Shown here: positions 14,617 to 37,716 of the stretch, piece by piece
How the letters are laid out: each line of letters starts with the position of its first letter
How positions within the stretch are numbered: position 1 is the first letter of the stretch
From: Candidatus Falkowbacteria bacterium CG10_big_fil_rev_8_21_14_0_10_37_14
GTDB taxonomy: Bacteria; Patescibacteriota; Patescibacteriia; Patescibacteriales; Patescibacteriaceae
Assembly (NCBI GenBank): GCA_002778705.1
Contig: PFAM01000013.1
Location: 65,077 to 102,792, forward strand
DNA: 37,716 nt
Reading direction: 5' to 3'
Translations under genes and position numbers: made by a program
The notes under the pieces: model-generated
The model's database searches: none
What the model was told of the DNA's origin: nothing
The model's input: the letters and a program-made list of their open reading frames with translations, nothing else

Positions 14617-14988
14617 ATGGCTGGAGAAAAATACAAGATTTTAATTGCAGAGGATGAAAAACCAATGGCGAGAGCCTTGGAGATGAAACTAAATCATGAA
14701 GGATTTGAAGCTAAGGCTGTTTTTAATGGCGAATTAGCTTTAGAGTCTTTGCTTTCAGAAAAATTTGCTTTAGTTTTGTTAGATTTAATGATGCCAAAGG
14801 TTGATGGTTTCAAGGTTTTAGAAACGATCAATGAAGCAAATTTAGCAGTGCCGGTGATTGTTTTGAGTAATTTAAATCAAGATGAGGATGAACAGAAAGC
14901 TAAAGATTTGGGGGCAAAAGCGTTTTTTGTTAAATCTAATACGCCGATTGCTGAAATTGTAAATTACGTTAAAAAGTTTTTGAGTTAA
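14617..14988 (+). CDS. CheY-like single-domain response regulator
   Basis: A stand-alone receiver domain of 123 residues. The acidic pocket is E12-D13, the phospho-accepting aspartate D56 in LLDLMMP, the switch Ser S84 in VLSN and the conserved lysine K106 in FFVKS. No DNA-binding or enzymatic output domain is attached, so it must act by binding a partner, as CheY-like proteins do. It is the first gene of the pilus operon, 10 nt before pilB (a GGAG lies in the gap). A role in controlling the PilB motor or assembly is inferred from position. The histidine kinase at 22104 is a candidate phosphodonor. Confidence 0.9.
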   Translation: MAGEKYKILIAEDEKPMARALEMKLNHEGFEAKAVFNGELALESLLSEKFALVLLDLMMPKVDGFKVLETINEANLAVPVIVLSNLNQDEDEQKAKDLGAKAFFVKSNTPIAEIVNYVKKFLS

Positions 14989-14998
14989 TGGAGTTAAT

Positions 14999-16657
14999 AT
15001 GAAACTTAACGGGGAGGCTTTGGTTAAGCTTTTAATTAAGCAAAATTACTTATCAAAAAGTGATGCTGTTAATGCACAAAAACTAGCCATAAAACATCGA
15101 GCCGACGTGCTGGATGTTTTGTTGTCTCAAGGGTTAGTTACTAATGATCTTTGTGGACAGGCGGTGGCTGAAGCTTTGGGGTTAGTTTATGCTGATTTAA
15201 ACTCTAATTTACCTGACAGAGAACAAGTTTTAAAAATTTCTGAAGAGCTAGCTAAAAAATTCAGAGTTGTTTTGTTTAAAGAAAATAAAAAAAGTGTTGT
15301 AGTAACTACTGATAATCCAGAAAACGAAGAAGTGTTATCAGTTATGGAGGCCTTATTTGCTGGTAAAAAAGTTACTATCCAATATTCTTTACCTGAGGAT
15401 ATTGATAATATCTTGATGTTCTATCGTAAATCTTTGGAGACTCGTTTTGCTAAGATTATCGATGAACAAAAACGTTTAGCTCCAGAAATTATAGAACAAA
15501 TTTTATCTGATGCTTTATCATTTCGAGCTTCTGATGTTCACTTTGAACCACAAATAGAGGAGGTGGTAATTCGTTTTCGTGTAGATGGTGTTCTGCAGGA
15601 GGCGGGTAGGGTACCTAAAAATTATTATGAAAATATCTTGAATCGTATTAAAGTGCAAAGCCGATTACGAATTGATGAGCATTTTGCTACTCAAGATGGT
15701 GCCATGAATTATAGTGACGGTGAAGTTTCGGTGGATATTAGAGTTTCGGTAGCTCCAATGGTTAATGGTGAAAAGGTGGTTTTAAGATTATTGTCATCAT
15801 ATATCAAGGGCTTGGCCTTGGCTGATTTAGGTTTGTCGCCCAAACATCAAGAAATGGTAGAATTGGCTGCTAATAAGCCGTTTGGAATGATTTTGGTAAC
15901 CGGGCCGACAGGGTCTGGAAAAACCACTACTTTGTATAGTTTAATTAGAATGTTAAATCAACCTGGGGTGAATATTACTACCATTGAAGACCCTGTGGAA
16001 TATAAAATAAAAGACATTAATCAGATCCAGGTTAACCATCAAACAGAGCTAACTTTTGCTAAAGGACTGAGATCTATTATGCGTCAGGATCCGGATATTA
16101 TTTTGGTAGGAGAAATTCGCGATGAGGAAACGGCTGAGATTGCGGTGAACGCTGCTTTAACTGGCCATTTATTATTATCTGCTTTTCATGCTAATGATGC
16201 CGCCGGGACTATTCCACGTTTGCTAAGCATGAAAAATGAACCATTTTTATTAGCCTCTACTTTAGAATTAATTATCGCGCAACGTTTAGTGCGAAAAATT
16301 TGTGATCATTGCCGTTATAGCTTTACTGCTAAGTTATCCAGCATACCAATGCCGATAAAAACTGTTAATAAGTTTTTTGGTAAAACAGATATGCTGCTCT
16401 ATAAAGGAAAAGGTTGTTCGGTGTGCGGTAATTCAGGATATCTTGGTCGAACGGCTATTTTTGAGTTAATCGCTTTGACTTCAGAAATGAAAGAATTGAT
16501 TTTAAAAGAACCTTCAGCGCAGGAGATTTGGAGTTTGGCTCGTAAACAAGGTTCGGCAACTTTTTTTGAAGATGGAATAGATAAGGTAAAGCAGGGTGTA
16601 ACGACGATAGATGAATTAAAGCGGGTAGCTGAAGTACCTTTGGCCGAGCGGAAATAA
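14999..16657 (+). CDS. pilB: Type IV pilus assembly ATPase PilB (GspE family)
   Basis: Hexameric cytoplasmic ATPase that powers pilus extension. The 552-residue protein begins with a MshEN/GspE N-terminal region (about 1-130). The core has Walker A GPTGSGKT at 302-309, an Asp-box region (TTIEDPVEY), Walker B with E372 in ILVGEIRDEET and a His box in TGHLLLSAFHAND. A zinc tetracysteine site, C435-x2-C438 and C473-x2-C476, is typical of PilB/GspE and absent from PilT retraction ATPases. Length is standard. pilC follows after 2 nt. Confidence 0.95.
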   Translation: MKLNGEALVKLLIKQNYLSKSDAVNAQKLAIKHRADVLDVLLSQGLVTNDLCGQAVAEALGLVYADLNSNLPDREQVLKISEELAKKFRVVLFKENKKSVVVTTDNPENEEVLSVMEALFAGKKVTIQYSLPEDIDNILMFYRKSLETRFAKIIDEQKRLAPEIIEQILSDALSFRASDVHFEPQIEEVVIRFRVDGVLQEAGRVPKNYYENILNRIKVQSRLRIDEHFATQDGAMNYSDGEVSVDIRVSVAPMVNGEKVVLRLLSSYIKGLALADLGLSPKHQEMVELAANKPFGMILVTGPTGSGKTTTLYSLIRMLNQPGVNITTIEDPVEYKIKDINQIQVNHQTELTFAKGLRSIMRQDPDIILVGEIRDEETAEIAVNAALTGHLLLSAFHANDAAGTIPRLLSMKNEPFLLASTLELIIAQRLVRKICDHCRYSFTAKLSSIPMPIKTVNKFFGKTDMLLYKGKGCSVCGNSGYLGRTAIFELIALTSEMKELILKEPSAQEIWSLARKQGSATFFEDGIDKVKQGVTTIDELKRVAEVPLAERK

Positions 16658-16659
16658 TT

Positions 16660-17757
16660 ATGAAAAATAATTTTTTTGGATCAATTGCTCAAAATATAAA
16701 CATCTGGTCTTCTGGCCACGATCGTGAATATTTGGTTGATAATTTGAGCTTGTTAGTTGGCTCTGGTTTAACTGTGCCAGATGCTTTGAAGGCTACAATG
16801 ACCGGTGTAAAAACCAAAACCATGACCAAGACGGTCACAGATATTAAGGATAATGTGGAAGCTGGTGTACCGTTGTGGAAGGCTATGGAAAAAACTAAAA
16901 TTTTCAAGAGTCATGTGGTTTCTTTAATTAAAATAGGCGAGGAAACTGGGCGATTGGCCAATAATTTAAAAGTAGTGCGCACAGAGCAACAGAAAGAATT
17001 AGATTTAAGATCTAAAGTGCGTTCAGCTATGATTTATCCGATTTTTGTATTTTGTTTAACGGGCATAGTAGCTTTAGGTATCGCTTGGTTTGTGTTACCG
17101 AGAATTACTCAAGTGTTTACACAGATGAATATGACACTGCCTTTGATTACTAAGGTTTTAATTTGGTTGGGAGATGCTTTAGAGGCTTATGGAATGATAA
17201 TTATCCCAGTGGCTTTGGTGATAATTTTTTTAACTGCTTTCTTTTTATTTTATTTTTCACTGACGAAATTTTTAGGTCAACGGTTACTGTTTGTTTTGCC
17301 CGGTATTGGTCGATTAATGCAAGATGTAGAATTGGCACGGTTTGGTTATTTATTAGGTTTGCTATTAGAGGCTGGCTTGCCAATTATTCAGGCTATTAAA
17401 TCGTTATCAGAGACTGCAACTTTTCAAGATTATCAAATTTTTTATGAATATCTAGCAAACGAAATTGATGATGGACGAACTTTTAATGATAGTTTTCTAT
17501 CTTATTATAAATTAAAACGGTTAGTGCCGACATCGGTTCAGCAATTAATTGTGACTGGCGAGCGTTCTGGTAATTTAGCTGGAACTTTATTGTCTATCGG
17601 AGCAACTTATGAAGCCAAGAGCGATATTACCGCAAAAAATTTATCAGTAATTTTAGAACCGATACTGCTAGTACTAGTTGCTTCGGGAGTAATTGCCGTG
17701 GCTTTGTCGGTAATCTTGCCGGTGTACAGTTTAATTGGTAGTCTGTCCATACAATAA
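16660..17757 (+). CDS. pilC: Type IV pilus platform protein PilC (GspF family)
   Basis: Inner-membrane platform that couples the PilB motor to pilin polymerisation. The 365-residue protein has two GspF repeats (about 20-140 and 225-345), each a cytoplasmic helical bundle with the LLxxGL-type pattern (LSLLVGSGLTVPDAL; LGLLLEAGLPIIQAI). Membrane helices lie near 125-150, 175-200 and 335-360. The IGEETGRL and TGERSGNL motifs after each bundle are diagnostic. It is slightly shorter than PilC proteins of about 400 residues because the N-terminal extension is missing. The first pilin gene begins 2 nt downstream. Confidence 0.94.
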   Translation: MKNNFFGSIAQNINIWSSGHDREYLVDNLSLLVGSGLTVPDALKATMTGVKTKTMTKTVTDIKDNVEAGVPLWKAMEKTKIFKSHVVSLIKIGEETGRLANNLKVVRTEQQKELDLRSKVRSAMIYPIFVFCLTGIVALGIAWFVLPRITQVFTQMNMTLPLITKVLIWLGDALEAYGMIIIPVALVIIFLTAFFLFYFSLTKFLGQRLLFVLPGIGRLMQDVELARFGYLLGLLLEAGLPIIQAIKSLSETATFQDYQIFYEYLANEIDDGRTFNDSFLSYYKLKRLVPTSVQQLIVTGERSGNLAGTLLSIGATYEAKSDITAKNLSVILEPILLVLVASGVIAVALSVILPVYSLIGSLSIQ

Positions 17758-17759
17758 TT

Positions 17760-18197
17760 ATGGTTAAATTATCAGCTTTTACACTAGTAGAAATGTTGTT
17801 AATTATAGCTATTATGGGTGTAATAGTTGGGTTGTCAGCTCCTGTGGTGCGCTTAAGTCAGATTAGTAATAATTTAGATTTAGCAGCTTTAACTACAACC
17901 CAAGCAATTAAGCGAGCGCAATTATTATCTATGGCTGTGGCGGAAGATAGTAACTGGGGTTTAAATGCTGGGACTAGTAGTTTGATTATTTTTAAAGGAG
18001 CTAATTTTGCCACTAGAGATATTAATTTTGATGAAGTTTGGGATATGCCTAGTGGAACTAGTGTGACTAGTACGGCTAGTATCGTTTTTAATAAAACTCG
18101 GGGTGATTGTATAACTCCGGGACAATTATTTGTAAGCTCTGTAAATAATGCAACTAAAATTCTCGTCATTAATTCTAAGGGGACGGTGGAGTACTAA
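17760..18197 (+). CDS. Pilin-like protein, FimT/GspH type
   Basis: A 145-residue type IV pilin-like protein with a five-residue basic leader and a class III signal: A6, then F7-TLVE with Glu at mature position +5 (E11), and a hydrophobic helix to about residue 30. The residue before cleavage is Ala, not the usual Gly. The C-terminal part is Ser/Thr-rich beta-like sequence with a single Cys. Short leader, small size and position right after pilC suit a GspH/FimT minor pilin. The last 50 nt overlap the start of the next pilin gene in another frame, so translation of the two is probably coupled. Confidence 0.85.
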   Translation: MVKLSAFTLVEMLLIIAIMGVIVGLSAPVVRLSQISNNLDLAALTTTQAIKRAQLLSMAVAEDSNWGLNAGTSSLIIFKGANFATRDINFDEVWDMPSGTSVTSTASIVFNKTRGDCITPGQLFVSSVNNATKILVINSKGTVEY

Positions 18198-19569
18198 GGC
18201 CGCTTTTTCTTTGGTGGAAATTATTTTATCTAGCGCTGTTTTTGCGGTGCTGGCGGCTATTTTATTGGGTTCCTACTGGTATGGCCAAGAGTCCACGGTA
18301 TTATCGGGGCGAAGAGCTCAGGCAATTTTTTTGGCCGAAGAAGGTTTAGAGGTGACACGTAATATGCGTGATACTGGTTTTGCTAGTTTAATTGACGGAA
18401 CCTATGGTTTAGCGACAAGTGGTGGCGAGTGGATATTTTCCGGCGCTCAAGATGTTAATGATATTTATACTAGGCAGGTAGCTGTCGGCAGTTTGGATAA
18501 TAATAATAAGCTAGTAACTTCCACAGTTACTTGGCAACAAAACTTGCAAAGAACAGGCACGGTAGTTTTAACAACCAAGCTAACTAATTGGTTAAGAAAA
18601 GGCGTTGGTAATTGGGCATTGCCAACACAAACTGCTTTTTTGAATTATGTCGGTAGTAATAACGCCACCAAAGTAGAGGTGAGCGGTAATTATGCTTATA
18701 TAATTTTTACGGCTGGCACGCCAAATTTTGTGGTGGTGGATATTAGTAATCCGGCTAGTCCAGTGGCGGTTGGATCATTAACTTTGAGTGGTATGCCGTT
18801 TAATTTATTTATTCAAGGAAATTACGCGTATATAGCTAGTAGTGATAATAGTCGAGAACTACAAATTATTGATGTGACCAATAAGGTGGCGCCAGTGTTA
18901 GTGGGGAGTTATGATGTTACTGGTAGTGCTGATGCTTATGGGGTTTATGTCGATGCCACTAGAGCGGCCTTGGTGAGGGCTAGTAGTGGTAGCAGAGAAT
19001 TTTATTTAATTGATGTTAGTAATCCAACCGCGCCAACTTTGACAAATTCTTTGGAGCTAGGGGCAACTGGCTATGAGGTGGTGATTTCTGGCAATTATGC
19101 TTATGTGGCTTCTGGAAATAATAATCAGGAATTACAAGTGGTAAACATTGCTGGAGGGGCTTCGAACATTGTTGGTTTTAGGGACATTTCTGGAAATACT
19201 GACGTTAGAACGATTACCATGTCTGGAAATAATATGTTATTAGGGGCAGGTTCTAATTTATATGTAGTTGATGTGGTAATACCAACCGCTCCGCAATTAA
19301 AAGGACAGGTTAGTTTAGGAGGAACTGTTAATGACATTGCTTTAACGACAGCTAATAATGGAACCACCGTATTTACAGCTCAGTCTAATACAGCAGCCGA
19401 GTTTAGAACTGTTGATATTACTATACCAAGTGCTCCAACAATTATAGGCACTGTTAATGTGTCCGGAAGTGATGTGATGGCCGGTGTGGCTTATAGCCTG
19501 GACTTTAATACAGCCTTTGGTGCTAGCGCGGCTAATGCTCAAGAGTTATTAGTATTTTCTCCTCAATAA
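18148..19569 (+). CDS. Minor pilin fused to a seven-bladed LVIVD-type beta-propeller
   Basis: A 473-residue protein. The N-terminus is a prepilin: an 18-residue leader plus A19, then F20-SLVE with the +5 Glu at E24, and a membrane helix to about 45. A PilV/GspI-like segment with AEEGLEVTRNMRD follows (about 60-80). From about 160 to the end, seven repeats of ~43 residues each carry a GNYAYV-like strand and a VVDISNPxxPxxVGS-like strand. This is the LVIVD repeat, which forms beta-propellers in exported proteins. The last blade ends at the terminus. A pilus-tip or fibre adhesin is inferred. The ATG at 18148 overlaps the previous gene by 50 nt; no later start leaves the leader intact. Confidence 0.85.
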   Translation: MQLKFSSLILRGRWSTKAAFSLVEIILSSAVFAVLAAILLGSYWYGQESTVLSGRRAQAIFLAEEGLEVTRNMRDTGFASLIDGTYGLATSGGEWIFSGAQDVNDIYTRQVAVGSLDNNNKLVTSTVTWQQNLQRTGTVVLTTKLTNWLRKGVGNWALPTQTAFLNYVGSNNATKVEVSGNYAYIIFTAGTPNFVVVDISNPASPVAVGSLTLSGMPFNLFIQGNYAYIASSDNSRELQIIDVTNKVAPVLVGSYDVTGSADAYGVYVDATRAALVRASSGSREFYLIDVSNPTAPTLTNSLELGATGYEVVISGNYAYVASGNNNQELQVVNIAGGASNIVGFRDISGNTDVRTITMSGNNMLLGAGSNLYVVDVVIPTAPQLKGQVSLGGTVNDIALTTANNGTTVFTAQSNTAAEFRTVDITIPSAPTIIGTVNVSGSDVMAGVAYSLDFNTAFGASAANAQELLVFSPQ

Positions 19570-19570
19570 T

Positions 19571-20101
19571 ATGATTAGTCGAAAGGTAGATAATAAACAA
19601 AATAAAAACGGGTTTACATTAGTGGAAATACTATTATATGTAGCGTGTGCCTCCTTGCTTTTGTTAGCATTATCTTTTTTGTGGATAGAATTACTGGCGG
19701 CCAGAGGCAGGCAACAGGCAATTATTGAGGTTAATGAACAAGGTACGGCGCTGGTTAGAATGATTAATCAAGAAATAAGATCAGCTCAGAATATTAATTT
19801 ACCGGCAATAGGTACTAGTGGTGTAATTTTGTCGTTGACTTCTGATGATTTGTTTATTAACCCACTGGTGTTTGACGCTTCGAGTACAACGATACGTTTA
19901 TCAGAGGCTGGCGGAGCGGCAATGGCTTTAACTAATTCTAAAGTGCTAGCTGATAGTTTAATTTTTTATAATCAATCAAAGCTTAATACTCCCGGGCTAA
20001 TTAGTTTTAGTTTTCATTTGAGATATGATGACGCTTCGGGACGCAGAGAGTATCAATTTGATAAAACTTTTCAAGGCACGGCCGCTTTAAGACAACCTTA
20101 A
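19571..20101 (+). CDS. Minor pilin, PilW/GspJ type
   Basis: A 176-residue pilin-like protein with a canonical class III signal: a basic leader, K-N-G14, then F15-TLVE with Glu +5 at E19 and a hydrophobic helix to about 42. It is the only one of the operon's pilins with the standard Gly before the cleavage site. The region after the helix, with EQGTALVRMINQEIRSA, matches the PilW/GspJ pattern. GspJ-type subunits cap the pseudopilus tip with GspI and GspK-like proteins. It starts 1 nt after the propeller pilin, fitting a tip complex assembled with it. Confidence 0.85.
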   Translation: MISRKVDNKQNKNGFTLVEILLYVACASLLLLALSFLWIELLAARGRQQAIIEVNEQGTALVRMINQEIRSAQNINLPAIGTSGVILSLTSDDLFINPLVFDASSTTIRLSEAGGAAMALTNSKVLADSLIFYNQSKLNTPGLISFSFHLRYDDASGRREYQFDKTFQGTAALRQP

Positions 20102-20105
20102 TTTT

Positions 20106-20522
20106 ATGTTTTGTATAGTGACTAAAAAATGCTATAATAAAAAAAGACCAGCCTATGTAGTGCTGATCAGTGTTTTGGTAGTAGGTGCTTTTGGTACGGC
20201 TTTGGCGATGGCGGTGTTACTATCTGGTATTAATTCGGCTAAGTCTGGGTTATTAGAGCAACAATCTGCTAATGCTCGGGCTTTGGCTAATGCTTGTGCC
20301 GAAGAAGCTTTAGGGCAAATTCGTGCTGACAAAAACTATAACGGTAGCGGTAATTTAAATATTGATAATGATACTTGTATATACACAGTAATATTAGGTT
20401 CTGGAGATATTAGGGATATTAATGTGACGGCTACCAGTAGTGTGGCGATTAGAAAAATATTTATCAATATTACCCAGATTAATCCAAGTATTCAAGTAAG
20501 TGTGTGGCGTGAAGTAAATTAA
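20106..20522 (+). CDS. PilX/GspK-like minor pilin
   Basis: A 138-residue protein with a basic leader (KKCYNKKRPA), then a hydrophobic helix (about 17-42) lacking the +5 Glu and the FTLVE motif. A helix with SANARALANACAEEALGQIR follows; this alanine-rich pattern with a Cys is typical of PilX N-terminal domains. Absence of the +5 Glu is also characteristic of GspK-type tip subunits. It completes a FimT-PilV-PilW-PilX-like series. Two cysteines, in ANACAEE and DTCIYT, may form a disulfide. A TTG/ATG ambiguity does not arise; the ATG at 20106 is 4 nt after the previous stop. Confidence 0.8.
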   Translation: MFCIVTKKCYNKKRPAYVVLISVLVVGAFGTALAMAVLLSGINSAKSGLLEQQSANARALANACAEEALGQIRADKNYNGSGNLNIDNDTCIYTVILGSGDIRDINVTATSSVAIRKIFINITQINPSIQVSVWREVN

Positions 20523-20526
20523 TTTT

Positions 20527-22107
20527 ATGAAACCAATTTTAAAAATAAAAACTAATCAGGTTGTTGAAGCTAATAAAAAAATAATATATTTAGGTGTCTT
20601 ATTGTCGGTCTTCGTATATCTGCTATTTACGGCGTTATCTTTTTGGCAATATAAAAATGAACGTAAGAGTGATGAATTAATGGCCAAAGTACGTAGCGCT
20701 AGTGTTATTAATTTTTACCAAACTCAGTTTAATAGCCATTTAGAAGTATTATCTGGTGATGTTAAGTTTATATCTCATGCCCCGGTTTTTAAAGATTATT
20801 TAAAACAACCTTCGGAACTTAATCGTAAAAAAGTGGAAGATTTATTTACACAATTTGCTTTACAGAGAAAGGTTTATGACCAAATTAGATATTTAGATAA
20901 AAATGGTCAGGAAATTATTAGGATAAATTATAACCAAGGACAGGCAACCGTAGTGCCTGTAAGTGATTTACAAAACAAAAAAGGCCGTTACTATTTTGAT
21001 GAAACCTTGGTGTTAAATGAAGGTGGTATTTACACTTCACCAATAGATTTAAATATTGAAAATAATAAAATAGAAGAGCCGTATAAGCCAATGTTGAGAA
21101 TAGGGACGCCGGCATTTTTGAATGAAGAAAAAGTTGGTGTGGTTATTTTAAACTACTTAGCTAAAAACATTTTAGATGAATCTAGTCTTGATGATAAAGA
21201 TGTTTTAGATAGCTTTAGTAATCAAGTAGAGATTTTAGATAGTAATGGTTATTGGTTAAAATCCAGTTTACCAAGATCTTGGGGGATGATGTTTTCTGAT
21301 AAAAAGGAACAGAATTTAATCAAAGAAAATCCTAAACTTTGGGATTTATTAAAGGGGAACCAACAAGGACAAGTGTTTTTTGAAAATGGTTTTTATTCTT
21401 TCGCTACTCTGGAGTCTGATAGCGGGGGTGTGACTTGGAAGATTTATAATCATATTCATAATAATGATCTGTACAGCAGGTCTAATATAATAGCATTACG
21501 ATTGATTTTAACTAACTTGTTATTTGCTGGCATTTTAGTAATTTTTATTTGGTATTTTTATAGAATTTTTAGACGACTTAAAGATGAAACACAAAAAAAA
21601 CAAGACAATGAACAAATGTTTAAGGCTTTTATGCAGGCGACTAAAGATGCCGTGGTAGTGATGGATGATAAAAATAAAATTGTATTTTGGAACCAAGGTG
21701 CAGTAAAGATGTTCGGCTATGATAACCAGGAAATAGTTGGGCAAGATTTTTATAAAATTACTTCAAACGAAAAACAAAAAAATATTCTAAATTTTAAGCA
21801 ATTTAGTAATATTGATATGCCAGATAAAATTATTGAATTATCCACTAAACGTAAAAATGGTGAAATTTTTATAGTTGAATTGTCAATGTCGAAAGCTTTG
21901 GTTGATGAACGATGGCGAGTTATTAGTATAATGCGAGAAATTACAGAGCGTAAAAAAAAGGAAAAAAATACTCAAGTTGAGTTATTAGAAAATAAAGAAA
22001 CAGCTGAAAAATTAACAAGAATGAATCAGTTGATGGTAGACAGAGAATTGGCTATGGTAAAACTTAAACAAGAAATTGTAGAGTTAAAACAGAAAGTAAA
22101 GCTATGA
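20527..22107 (+). CDS. Membrane Cache/PAS sensor without a kinase domain
   Basis: A 526-residue sensor. TM1 is at about 19-40, a ~280-residue extracellular Cache-type domain (dCache/LuxQ-like, with the QIRYLDKNGQEIIRIN strand) follows, and TM2 is at about 320-345. A cytoplasmic PAS domain (about 364-475, DAVVVMDDKNKIVFWNQGA) and a charged coiled-coil tail (476-526) complete it. There is no HisKA, HATPase, GGDEF or methyl-accepting region. The ATGA overlap with the next gene, a complete histidine kinase, couples their synthesis. I infer a co-receptor or heteromeric partner feeding the kinase. A split from a former larger kinase is another option. Confidence 0.85.
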   Translation: MKPILKIKTNQVVEANKKIIYLGVLLSVFVYLLFTALSFWQYKNERKSDELMAKVRSASVINFYQTQFNSHLEVLSGDVKFISHAPVFKDYLKQPSELNRKKVEDLFTQFALQRKVYDQIRYLDKNGQEIIRINYNQGQATVVPVSDLQNKKGRYYFDETLVLNEGGIYTSPIDLNIENNKIEEPYKPMLRIGTPAFLNEEKVGVVILNYLAKNILDESSLDDKDVLDSFSNQVEILDSNGYWLKSSLPRSWGMMFSDKKEQNLIKENPKLWDLLKGNQQGQVFFENGFYSFATLESDSGGVTWKIYNHIHNNDLYSRSNIIALRLILTNLLFAGILVIFIWYFYRIFRRLKDETQKKQDNEQMFKAFMQATKDAVVVMDDKNKIVFWNQGAVKMFGYDNQEIVGQDFYKITSNEKQKNILNFKQFSNIDMPDKIIELSTKRKNGEIFIVELSMSKALVDERWRVISIMREITERKKKEKNTQVELLENKETAEKLTRMNQLMVDRELAMVKLKQEIVELKQKVKL

Positions 22108-24479
22108 AAAATTTTTCAGTCAAAAAGAAAATAACTTTAAGCATTTTATTTACTGGCCTGTTTATTGGCTCGGTGGTAAGTGCTTCTGTTTTTTTGTATT
22201 TACGGGAAGCTTTAATAAGTAATCAAATAAATTTACTTAGCCAGGTGGTGATAGAGCAAAATCACGAAACTGAACAAACGTTAGCCAATAATTTATTGTT
22301 TACAAAAATGCTGGCGACACGCACAAAGGTACAAGAGTATCTAGAGTTTCAAACAGAAAGTCGGCGCATAGAACTAGACGAAATTTTAAAAGAATATCAC
22401 AAAGAAGACGCTAATTTTCTAGCTATTTATTTGTTAGATGAAAAGGGAACAGCTTTAATATCCACCGACTCAAGTTTTGTTAATAAGGATTATAGTTTTA
22501 GGGATTATTTTAAAAATGCCAAAACTGGAAAAATTACAGCCACGGCTTTGTGGGGTGTGACCAGCAAACAGTTTGGTTATTATTTTTCCCAGCCGATTTA
22601 TAATCAACAGGGAAAATTTATTGGTGCGATGGTGATAAAAACTACTGGTGAAGACTTAACTAAGCAAGTTTTGGAAAGTGAATTGTCAAAGCAAAATGAT
22701 ATAATGCTGGTTGATCGTTATGGTATAATTTTATCAACCAATAAGCAAGGAAGATTTTTAAAAAGTTTAGGAGCTTTAACGGAACAAGAACAAGAGGAAA
22801 TTAAAAGTAGTAAACGTTTTGGTGATAACGCTATAGATCCATTACAATATAATGAAATACAAGAAGCAGTCCGCAATTATGCTGACTATAGGATTATTAG
22901 TATTTATGATCAGGAAGATAGTGATCAGGAATATTTTTTTATTTATAGACTAGCTGGAGAAGATTTATTTTTGGTGGTGGAGGCTGGCCTGGAAAATTTA
23001 CTAGTAATGTTTAGTTTTACTTTATGGATGGTAACTGGATTAATAGCGGTTATGGTTTTATTAATGTCGATAATGGTTTATTGGTTATTGTTTAAGTTTT
23101 TAAAGCCTCTGTATTTGTTGAGAGAGGCGGCTAATCAAATTGGACAGGGTGATTTTTCTTATAAAATAAAAACCGTCAATGATGATGAATTTGGTGATCT
23201 GGCCAAATCTTTTAATCTAATGAATGGACAGCTGAAAGACTTATATTCTGGAATGGATAAAAAAATTAAAGATCGTACTAAAGATTTGAATGAAAAAAAT
23301 AAAAATTTAGATAAACAACAAGAAGCGGTTTTGAATATTTTAGAAGATGTGGCAGTTGAAAAGAAAAAAGCAGAAAGTTTAGCTGATGATTTAGAAAAGT
23401 TCCGGCTGGCGGTGGATAATTCTTCGGAACAAATTGTCATTACTGATAAAGAGGGTTTGGTTTTGTATGGTAATAAAGCCATGCAGACTATTACAGGGTA
23501 TTCCACAAAAGAAGTTTTAGGCACTAAGGCTGGGAAGTTGTGGAGATTACCAATGCCTAAACAATATTATGAAAATTTTTGGGATACTATTAAAAATAAG
23601 AAACAACCGTTTATAGGCGTGATACAGAATAAACGAAAAAATGGAGAAGAATATGATGCGGCTATTAGTGTTTATCCTATTATGAATAGCGATAACGAGA
23701 TTGTATATTTTGTGGCCATTGAGCGCGATGTAACTAAAGAAAAACAAGTTGATCGGGCTAAGACAGAGTTTGTTAGTTTAGCTTCGCATCAATTAAGAAC
23801 GCCACTGTCGACGGTTAATTGGTATGTAGAAATGCTGTTATCAGGAGATGCTGGAGAATTGAATGAAGAGCAGAAAAAGTATTTAGCCGAGGTTTATCAA
23901 GGTAATCAACGAATGGTGGACTTGGTTAATTCTTTGCTAAATGTGTCGCGTATTGAATTGGGTAAATTAGCTATAAAGCCTGAGTTTTTGAATATTGCAG
24001 AATTGGCTCAGAGTGCAGTGGCTGAACAACAACCACAAATTATGCAAAAAGAGCATAAATTAATAACTAATTTTGTTAAAGATGCTCCAAAATTAATGGC
24101 TGATCCTAAGTTGTTAAGAATGGTGTTTCAAAATTTATTGTCTAACGCCATTAAGTACACACCACCTAAAGGACGAATTGAAATGAAGGTGGAATATAAA
24201 ACCAAACAAAAAGCCTTTGTTATAACCGTGGCAGATAATGGTATAGGTATTCCGACGGAGCAATGTAACAGAATATTTACTAAAATGTTTAGAGCTGATA
24301 ATGTTAAAGAGGCTGATACGGAAGGGACCGGCTTAGGACTGTATATTATCAAATCGATTATAGAGGGTTCTGGGGGTAGTATTACTTTTCAATCAGTTGA
24401 GAATGAGGGTACTAAATTTACAGCGACCCTGCCTTTGGAGGGTATGAAAGAGGTTAAGGGCGATAAATCTTTAATTTAA
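22104..24479 (+). CDS. Cache-HAMP-PAS sensor histidine kinase
   Basis: A complete 791-residue membrane histidine kinase. TM1 lies at about 10-32, an extracellular Cache domain at about 40-270 (AIYLLDEKGTALISTD; GYYFSQPIYNQQGKFIG) and TM2 at about 297-325. HAMP is at 325-385, a coiled coil follows, then PAS at about 432-545. HisKA carries the phospho-accepting H562 in ASHQLRTPLS. The HATPase has N box NLLSNAIKY, G1 DNGIGIP and G2 TGLGLYI. It overlaps the kinase-less sensor by 4 nt and is followed 5 nt later by a receiver protein, its likely phosphoacceptor. The first receiver of the operon (14617) is a second candidate. The ligand is unknown. Confidence 0.95.
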   Translation: MKNFSVKKKITLSILFTGLFIGSVVSASVFLYLREALISNQINLLSQVVIEQNHETEQTLANNLLFTKMLATRTKVQEYLEFQTESRRIELDEILKEYHKEDANFLAIYLLDEKGTALISTDSSFVNKDYSFRDYFKNAKTGKITATALWGVTSKQFGYYFSQPIYNQQGKFIGAMVIKTTGEDLTKQVLESELSKQNDIMLVDRYGIILSTNKQGRFLKSLGALTEQEQEEIKSSKRFGDNAIDPLQYNEIQEAVRNYADYRIISIYDQEDSDQEYFFIYRLAGEDLFLVVEAGLENLLVMFSFTLWMVTGLIAVMVLLMSIMVYWLLFKFLKPLYLLREAANQIGQGDFSYKIKTVNDDEFGDLAKSFNLMNGQLKDLYSGMDKKIKDRTKDLNEKNKNLDKQQEAVLNILEDVAVEKKKAESLADDLEKFRLAVDNSSEQIVITDKEGLVLYGNKAMQTITGYSTKEVLGTKAGKLWRLPMPKQYYENFWDTIKNKKQPFIGVIQNKRKNGEEYDAAISVYPIMNSDNEIVYFVAIERDVTKEKQVDRAKTEFVSLASHQLRTPLSTVNWYVEMLLSGDAGELNEEQKKYLAEVYQGNQRMVDLVNSLLNVSRIELGKLAIKPEFLNIAELAQSAVAEQQPQIMQKEHKLITNFVKDAPKLMADPKLLRMVFQNLLSNAIKYTPPKGRIEMKVEYKTKQKAFVITVADNGIGIPTEQCNRIFTKMFRADNVKEADTEGTGLGLYIIKSIIEGSGGSITFQSVENEGTKFTATLPLEGMKEVKGDKSLI

Positions 24480-24484
24480 TTTTT

Positions 24485-24889
24485 ATGGATAAAATAATTA
24501 ATGTGCTAGTAGTAGAAGATGAGAGACCACTATTAGAGGCTATTAAAGAAAAGCTAGAACGTAATAACTTTAAAGTTTTTACGGCACGTAGTGTGGATGA
24601 GGCCTTAGCTAGACTAGAGGAGGCGGGAATAGTGGATGTTATCTGGTTGGATCATTATTTGCTTGGGAAGGCTAGTGGTTTAGATTTTGTTGGTAAATGT
24701 AAAGAAAAAAATAGTAAATATAGTCATGTACCCATTTTTGTAGTGTCTAATACGGCTAGTGATGATAAAGTTCAGGCTTATTTGAAACTGGGGGTTACTA
24801 AATATTATGTTAAGGCTGAAAAACGTTTAGATGAAATGATTGTGGACATCAGGGAAACGTTGGCGAAAGAGGGTTTATTAAAAACTTAG
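24485..24889 (+). CDS. Second CheY-like response regulator
   Basis: A 134-residue receiver domain. The acidic pair is E11-D12, the phosphorylation site D56 in WLDHYLLG, the switch Ser S88 in VVSNTA and the conserved lysine K110 in YYVKAE. The DHYLLG context, with bulky residues after the Asp, differs from the DLMMP of the first receiver, so the two are unlikely to be recent duplicates. There is no output domain. Position directly after the histidine kinase makes it the probable cognate partner. Like the first receiver it presumably acts through protein contacts rather than on DNA. Confidence 0.9.
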   Translation: MDKIINVLVVEDERPLLEAIKEKLERNNFKVFTARSVDEALARLEEAGIVDVIWLDHYLLGKASGLDFVGKCKEKNSKYSHVPIFVVSNTASDDKVQAYLKLGVTKYYVKAEKRLDEMIVDIRETLAKEGLLKT

Positions 24890-24895
24890 AATTGT

Positions 24896-25198
24896 ATGGT
24901 GGCGTTTATTGCTAAAAAAGAAGATTTTGTTTGCGAGCATTGTGGCGCAACGGTGAAGGGCAGTGGTTATACTAATCATTGCCCGCAGTGTTTTTATTCC
25001 AAACACGTGGATATTGATCCGGGCGACCGGCTTAATACTTGCAAGGGGTTAATGGAGCCGATTGGGATGGAAATTAAGGGTAAGACATGGCGAGTAAGAC
25101 AACGCTGTTTGAAATGCGGAGAAATTTGGGAAAATAAGTTAGCTGATAATGATGATATAACGATGTTAATTGAGCTAGTTAAAATGAGGAATAAATAA
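24896..25198 (+). CDS. RNHCP-domain zinc protein
   Basis: A 100-residue protein matching the RNHCP family, named after a conserved motif that here reads YTNHCPQCFYSKHVD. Zinc ligands are visible as FVCEHC, NHCPQC and, in the second half, TCKG and RCLKC, consistent with two treble-clef or rubredoxin-like sites. The DPGDR motif after the first knuckle is also family-typical. The function is not established; the zinc ribbon and basic second half (KTWRVRQRC) suggest nucleic-acid or ribosome binding. It starts 6 nt after the second receiver, so it is the last gene of the pilus operon, an unexpected companion. Confidence 0.85.
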   Translation: MVAFIAKKEDFVCEHCGATVKGSGYTNHCPQCFYSKHVDIDPGDRLNTCKGLMEPIGMEIKGKTWRVRQRCLKCGEIWENKLADNDDITMLIELVKMRNK

Positions 25199-36929: not shown

Positions 36930-37716
36930 ATTTACGAGAGTTTGATCCTGGCTCAGGATGAATGCTGGCGGCGTGTTTAAGGCATGCAAGTCGAGTGCAA
37001 TTCGGTTGCACGGCAAACGGGAGAGTAACACATTGGTAATCTACCCAGAAGACGGGGATAATCTCGCGAAAGCGGGGATAATACCTGATAGTCTATGCGA
37101 ATTATGTTCGTATAGTAAAGCTCCGGCGCTTCTGGAGGAGCCTATGTTCCATCAGCTTGTTGGTGAGGTAAAAGCTCACCAAGGCTACGACGGATACCGG
37201 GTGTGAGAGCATGGCCCGGCTCACTGGAACTGAGACACTGTCCAGACTCCTACGGGAGGCTGCAGTCAAGAATATTCCTCAATGGGCGAAAGCCTGAAGG
37301 AGCGACGCCGCGTGTATGATGACGCTCTTCGGAGTGTAAAGTACTTTTACCAGGGAAGAATTATGACGGTACCTGGAGAATAAGGGGCTGCTAACTTCGT
37401 GCCAGCAGCAGCGGTAATACGAAGGCCCCAAGCATTATCCGGATTTATTGGGTGTAAAGCGTGCGTAGGTGGTTTGGTGTATCTTTTGTTAAAGTCCGGG
37501 GCTCAACCCTGGGAGTGCGGGAGACATAGCCAGACTAGAGACTGGAAGAGGCAAGTGGAATTACTGGTGTAGGGGTTAAATCCGTTAATATCAGTAGGAA
37601 CGCCAAATGTGAAGACAGCTTGCTAGGACAGTTCTGACACTAAGGCACGAAAGCGTGGGGAGCGAATGGGATTAGATACCCCAGTAGTCCACGCCGTAAA
37701 CGATGGATGCTGAGCA
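36930..37716 (+). rRNA. rrs: 16S ribosomal RNA, 5' part (runs off the window)
   Basis: AGAGTTTGATCCTGGCTCAG begins at 36937, E. coli position 8, so the mature 5' end is near 36930. Conserved blocks follow: ACTCCTACGGGAGGC (37246), GTGCCAGCAGCAGCGG (37399) and ATTAGATACCCCAGTAGTCC (37671). The last base corresponds to about E. coli 830. The 3' half, including the anti-Shine-Dalgarno, is outside the window. The EUB338 and 515F sites each carry one change (37261 and 37410). Helix 18 keeps pairing by compensatory changes. The overall look is Patescibacteria/Parcubacteria. A reading frame at 36958-37206 inside the gene is not coding. Confidence 0.98.

Follow-up and report, generated by a model that had tools for sequence, protein, structure and literature searches.

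A probable modular type IV minor pilin with a predicted LVIVD beta-propeller in a Candidatus Falkowbacteria genome and the variety of heads at its operon position in CPR bacteria

Introduction

Partner recognition by uncultivated CPR bacteria is poorly understood, and the one published case, from Saccharibacteria, implicates a propeller-bearing minor pilin: when PilX2 is deleted in Nanosynbacter lyticus TM7x, the share of host cells bound falls from about 10.6% to 4.6% (PMC12206443). A stretch of 37,716 nucleotides from the genome of Candidatus Falkowbacteria bacterium CG10_big_fil_rev_8_21_14_0_10_37_14, here called the window, contains a reading frame which a preliminary description had taken for a type IV minor pilin fused to a seven-bladed LVIVD propeller, and for a candidate adhesin. 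This locus raises the question of whether pilin and repeats really form one protein, what the C-terminal part is, how far the arrangement extends among CPR bacteria and which function it might serve.

Results

Reading frame, leader and pilin module

The features of the locus are collected in Table 1. The 473 codons form a single uninterrupted frame, which confirmed that pilin and repeats belong to one protein. A 19-residue leader is followed by the motif A/FSLVE (the slash marks the predicted cut), a membrane helix, an AEEGLE segment at residues 63-68, the remainder of the pilin module up to LTNW, and LVIVD repeats to the C-terminus. The prepilin N-terminus named in the preliminary description is thus in place, with F20, E24 at position +5 of the mature protein and AEEGLE all correctly positioned. 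The residue preceding the predicted cut is Ala19, where glycine is usual. Profile searches for the pilin N-terminus supported the assignment: TIGR02532 scored 17.2 against a cut-off of 16.3 on the window's module alone, and the prepilin motif PF07963 reached 17.9 bits in hmmscan, below the Pfam cut-off of 21.2, and 22.3 bits in the genome scan, above it. The start codon lies 50 bp within the upstream H-like gene. An identical 50-bp overlap was found in seven relatives (L024, L025, L026, L079, L085, L088 and L113), which makes both the start and the overlap probably genuine. We rejected separate frames and a joining error of the assembly on the evidence of the one open frame, of the overlap in these seven other loci and of the occurrence of the fusion in many genomes.

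Table 1. Features of the pilus operon and of its modular pilin (window coordinates)
Feature	Position	Strand	Basis
Response regulator, REC only, 123 aa, operon head	14617..14988	+	PF00072 1.7e-21
PilB/GspE-type assembly ATPase	14999..16657	+	PF00437 (T2SSE) 3e-120, MshEN 1.5e-8
PilC/GspF-type platform protein	16660..17757	+	PF00482 (T2SSF) 3.1e-45
GspH/FimU-like minor pilin (H), 145 aa	17760..18197	+	ComGD 1.5e-6, GspH 1.7e-4, both under curated cut-offs; conserved position
Modular minor pilin, I/V slot (V): prepilin leader, pilin module, LVIVD propeller, 473 aa	18148..19569	+	Sequence, Pfam, AlphaFold2
Leader peptide, residues 1-19, cut predicted Ala19/Phe20	18148..18204	+	Sequence; TIGR02532; the genome's PilD-type peptidase
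Pilin module, residues 1-152, end = LTNW (about residue 148)	18148..18603	+	Alignments; every I/V-slot relative has a homologous module
Seven-bladed LVIVD propeller, residues 154-473	18607..19566	+	PF08309; AlphaFold2; VIA-align
GspJ/PilW-like minor pilin (J), 176 aa	19571..20101	+	PF07963 5.9e-5; weak HpsC, PRK10557 and GspJ-type matches; conserved position
GspK/PilX-like minor pilin (K), short, 138 aa, without Glu+5	20106..20522	+	Position, recurs after J in relatives; profile matches marginal
Membrane sensor protein: HK sensor domain and PAS, without kinase domain	20527..22107	+	PF21623 2.6e-34, PAS_9 7e-14
Sensor histidine kinase: dCache, HAMP, PAS, HisKA, HATPase	22104..24479	+	Domain matches
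Second single-domain response regulator	24485..24889	+	PF00072 1.2e-14

The class of the subunit was assessed with 45 modules scanned singly, which matched ComGE (26), XpsI (15), PilV (14), GspI (12), GspJ (3) and GspH (1). Relatives reached best E-values of 1e-4 to 1e-7 to GspI, PilV, XpsI and ComGE, under the curated cut-offs where these are visible, and the window's module matched ComGE alone (18.7 against a cut-off of 49). Given scores under the cut-offs, the subunit is of I/V class by position and resemblance and stands outside the curated GspI and PilV families; judged in this way, it probably functions like an I/V subunit.

The propeller head

The seven LVIVD repeats that had been proposed to fill the rest of the protein were borne out by PF08309 (E 3.3e-31, 106.8 bits against a cut-off of 20.2), with four stretches individually significant, which ruled out chance repeats. 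Splitting the sequence at the repeat motif gave seven units of about 43-48 residues each. An AlphaFold2 model, built from two sequences only, placed exactly 28 strands in residues 159-472, that is seven four-stranded blades in a closed ring. Block means of pLDDT in the head were 69-96 for residues 161-400 and 65-82 beyond. The pilin part was modelled for residues 17-131 as a helix and four strands with pLDDT below 50. In VIA-align the head superposed on the seven-bladed WD40 proteins WDR5 and RACK1 (Z 35.5, rmsd 1.9 Å over 286 residues); with 12% sequence identity this is a likeness of fold, not kinship. According to the model, the head is a closed seven-bladed beta-propeller, as the preliminary description had expected. 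Propellers of the RCC1 and PilY1 types were ruled out, since the protein has no match to an RCC1 family or to PF05567 at E ≤ 1.

Searched by sequence against solved structures, the window protein had no match at E ≤ 1; the module profile matched only prepilin N-termini there, for example that of geopilin (E 0.007). Among 18 LVIVD heads 11% of the columns were conserved, against 22% in the module. The conserved head positions are mostly Gly, Pro, Tyr and a recurring blade Glu/Asp; they appear largely structural and form no obvious catalytic set. LVIVD heads are acidic, with net charges of -2 to -41 and pI values of 4.0-5.3 in 20 heads; the window's head has a charge of -12 and a pI of 4.1.

Operon and genome

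The operon at 14617-24889 reads REC-pilB-pilC-H-V-J-K-sensor-histidine kinase-REC. The neighbouring GspH-, GspJ- and GspK-like subunits reported earlier were recovered through weak profile matches together with gene order. In 22 of 34 related loci a stand-alone REC gene lies directly 5' of pilB, and 17 of 48 have a kinase-like gene no more than eight genes downstream. The pilus operon is framed by a sensor/kinase pair and two stand-alone REC proteins; control of the ATPase in the manner of PilG/CheY is conceivable. In the window the sensor kinase genes follow K directly (20522-24896) and there is no major pilin gene, which most relatives have at this place; the filament pilin may be encoded elsewhere, for example near position 171190 of contig C15 (G000:C15:171190). 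An ORF call at 36958-37206 (window from about 36938 onward) is rRNA and not a gene, since GAGTTTGATCCTGGCTCAGG, which immediately precedes 36958, forms the conserved 5' end of 16S rRNA.

The source genome (G000; 910 kb, 26 contigs, 90% complete) encodes a PilD-type prepilin peptidase and further pilus ATPase loci, and the modular pilin is the only LVIVD gene found in it. A locus on contig 17 has the order REC-pilB-pilC-H-V-J-K with a V subunit of 160 aa and no head; headed and headless versions of the V slot thus occur in one bacterium. Another, on contig 22, has PilM-like, PilB and PilC genes and two major-pilin-like genes, without an H-V-J-K set. The genome further contains 41 prepilin-motif matches, 33 of them above the Pfam cut-off and many in ORFs of 340-540 aa, indicating a large set of pilin-like proteins. 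On contig 10 a 1012-aa protein carries two PilB/GspE-type ATPase domains in tandem (L154:8008-11046).

Distribution and conserved position

Of 380 genomes sampled across the phylum, 247 contained a match to a profile of the pilin module at E ≤ 1e-6; the weak matches may represent other I/V-type pilins. We examined 48 modules from loci around the better matches. H is the immediate upstream neighbour in 42 of the 48 loci; downstream, J comes within two genes in 42 and K within three in 40. PilB lies within four genes upstream in 34, and elsewhere the contig frequently stops. The survey of CPR genomes for the same fusion beside pilB/pilC, which had been put forward as a check, was clearly positive: fetched loci and same-frame matches together gave the module-LVIVD fusion in at least 32 of the 380 genomes, from 23 families, with some calls (L095, L103) based on a repeat profile built in this analysis instead of Pfam. 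A further, full-length case, a MAG deposited as Candidatus Gracilibacteria (L113), has the same operon and 38% identity over residues 20-472.

A scan for conserved patterns with the single protein returned three loci, of which two, L114 and L115, are matches of the LVIVD type that lack a pilin module. Giant CPR ORFs of about 1000-3900 aa likewise contain LVIVD repeats, often many of them, and show no evident pilin part (e.g. G411:C2, G352:C4 and G258:C12); the repeat alone is therefore no proof of an adhesin.

Exchange of heads

The C-termini of the 47 full-length modules comprised 27 LVIVD heads, 15 other extensions of at least 100 aa and five short tails, so that LVIVD was the commonest head among the loci examined here; the tree set was picked among top-scoring matches, and these proportions are not population frequencies. 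One of the LVIVD cases (L026/L031) was counted as such with the gene split by a contig end, the matching head starting another contig of the same genome. Other heads included a Laminin_G/ConA-like domain in L092 (4e-23), InlB B-repeats in L100 (1e-41) and fn3 in L029 (2.5e-15), and in L089 the LVIVD repeats are followed by a CBM_2 domain (4e-25). The heads of L024 and L025 are 61% alike and have no convincing Pfam match. In L046:1322-1918, L075:5414-6052 and L078:5610-6350 a related Cys-rich tail of 56-60 aa replaces the propeller; these tails resemble a small disulfide-knotted domain. In one family, f96 (L097, L098, L099, L104 and L105), the H-like subunit just upstream is itself 880-1015 aa long, so that large domains may be borne by two subunits of a single tip complex.

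The window protein shares 53% identity with L024 in the module, while the remainder is unrelated (25%, the background level). L075 and L076 are 74% identical in the module and end in a 60-aa Cys-rich tail and a propeller, respectively. L076 and L077 share 70% in the module and only 34% in the propellers; the corresponding values for L076 and L079 are 60% and 57%. Head type was not clustered on the module tree (15 changes against 15.3 after shuffling), and its well-supported branches force at least five head changes. With only five of 44 inner branches well supported, the timing of the exchanges is beyond reconstruction. Closely related modules with unrelated C-termini, the unclustered heads and the forced changes give good support to the view that heads within one slot have been exchanged, or gained and lost repeatedly. 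The mechanism may have been recombination at the junction of module and head.

Discussion

Modular pilins combine a pilin moiety of helix and beta-sheet with an extra domain that has no specific tie to pilus biology; in the window protein the extra domain is the LVIVD propeller after residue 153. Such pilins are a described class with members in CPR bacteria (PMC8179133); contrary to the emphasis of the preliminary description, size alone does not make a minor pilin exceptional. A propeller on a CPR minor pilin is not unprecedented either: TM7x PilX2, already tested for host binding, likewise has a C-terminal seven-bladed propeller and was proposed to be an adhesin (PMC12206443). Its propeller is of the RCC1 type, for which the window protein has no match at E ≤ 1, and it takes its name from the X class and lacked a predicted PilD signal, whereas the window protein occupies the I/V slot and has a recognisable prepilin motif. 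PilB and PilC of Streptococcus sanguinis, modular pilins whose binding modules were modelled at the tip (PMC8179133, PMC9934059), resemble the window protein in the grafting of a large, unrelated binding module onto the C-terminus of a small pilin module, and the ConA-like lectin domain of L092 parallels that of S. sanguinis PilC. The S. sanguinis heads are a vWA and an Ig plus lectin domain, in contrast to the LVIVD propeller, and the counterpart of the I subunit there is PilA, not one of the modular subunits. In diderm type IVa pili a tip propeller is also presented by minor pilins (PMC7541494, PMC8179133). That propeller, PilY1/PilC, is a separate non-pilin protein of PF05567; PilY1 was found in none of 145 genomes of the phylum, a count that is uninformative, since the control genomes were likewise without a match. 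LVIVD repeats (PF08309) are known from archaeal and bacterial cell-surface proteins (PMC2447325), there outside any pilin. The combination of LVIVD and pilin was not found in the literature searched; it may figure among the 264 architectures in the supplementary dataset of PMC8179133. Known before were thus modular pilins as a class and one CPR minor-pilin propeller with other repeats in another subunit class (PMC12206443). In the literature searched we found described neither the LVIVD head, nor its spread over CPR families, nor a fixed slot in which heads are exchanged.

We consider it fairly probable that the protein belongs to the modular type IV minor pilins, in the GspI/PilV class, and that its propeller serves as an exchangeable binding head projecting at the pilus tip, most likely in surface recognition. 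The prepilin peptidase would cleave the leader; the membrane helix and pilin module would then build the subunit, together with H, J and K, into the filament-initiating complex that ends up at the tip, from which the propeller would project. The I/V slot of CPR bacteria would be a socket for swappable heads, and the likely target would be the surface of a host or partner cell, a surface glycan or a polymer. The tip complex proposed earlier remains the likely location in view of the minor-pilin operon H-V-J-K, and in Myxococcus xanthus the minor-pilin/PilY1 complex was located at the pilus tip (PMC7541494). The same work tentatively put PilV beside the major pilin, at the foot of the tip complex and not at its top, and bulky tags on some tip subunits abolished function (PMC7541494). 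If that placement applied here, a long head would need to extend beyond J and K, and such a PilV-like position at the base is the chief structural doubt about this reading. The lectin-like and carbohydrate-binding alternatives in the slot, the published modular pilins and TM7x PilX2 make a recognition head at the tip the most economical reading.

The propeller might instead have a mostly structural role, as a bulky cap that lacks a ligand, primes assembly and blocks retraction. The M. xanthus PilY1/minor-pilin complex was indeed proposed to prime extension and to act as a cork (PMC7541494), and with the short K subunit of 138 aa the bulk could have shifted to the I/V subunit. A slot that accepts no head, a Cys-rich tail of 56-60 aa or very different folds is nevertheless ill-suited to a fixed cap, and several of the heads are lectin-like or polysaccharide-binding; we regard this explanation as unlikely. 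Somewhat less probable still is a head acting as a sensor that reports contact or a ligand to the kinases of the same operon, which in turn set pilus activity. The sensor, kinase and second REC genes after K, as well as the REC and kinase-like genes in the related loci, fit such a role, but kinase genes also lie beside pilins with other heads or none (e.g. L075 and L091), so that they track the operon rather than the LVIVD head, and the kinase has a dCache sensor domain of its own. Sensing is in any case compatible with adhesion and does not exclude it.

Two readings concern the machine as a whole. For a competence filament whose head captures DNA speak ComGE as the top match of the modules among NCBIfam models and the proposed role of CPR pili in natural transformation (discussed in PMC10633639); acidic heads (pI 4.0-5.3 in 20 of them) are hard to reconcile with it, another pilus system of the genome, without H-V-J-K, could fill this role, and DNA uptake seems improbable. 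H, J and K resemble GspH, GspJ and GspK as much as pilus subunits, as would suit a type II-like secretion pseudopilus with the head as a piston part handling cargo. This is very improbable: major-pilin genes directly follow K in many relatives, no secretin or cargo gene was seen within the window, and pseudopilins do not typically bear large exchangeable heads, as modular pilins do.

Recognition by a head at the tip thus keeps its place as the preferred reading. Host attachment by the propeller pilin is a candidate role suggested by the CPR lifestyle and the PilX2 precedent. Since its slot bears an LVIVD or another head across CPR bacteria, the protein is a likely candidate for a determinant of the attachment target. 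A wider and more tentative proposal, which we hold to be possible though somewhat short of even odds, is that the I/V subunit of a widespread CPR pilus is a dedicated socket whose heads, LVIVD being the commonest, are swapped among lineages by recombination and set the cell or polymer latched on to. Our results indicate that a subunit comparable to that of Saccharibacteria, with another propeller family and in another slot, recurs in many CPR families at a fixed operon position. A slot that accepts lectin-like, polysaccharide-binding and other heads yields a short list of proteins for culture-free ligand screening, and if the socket proposal is true, the predicted head would predict the type of partner.
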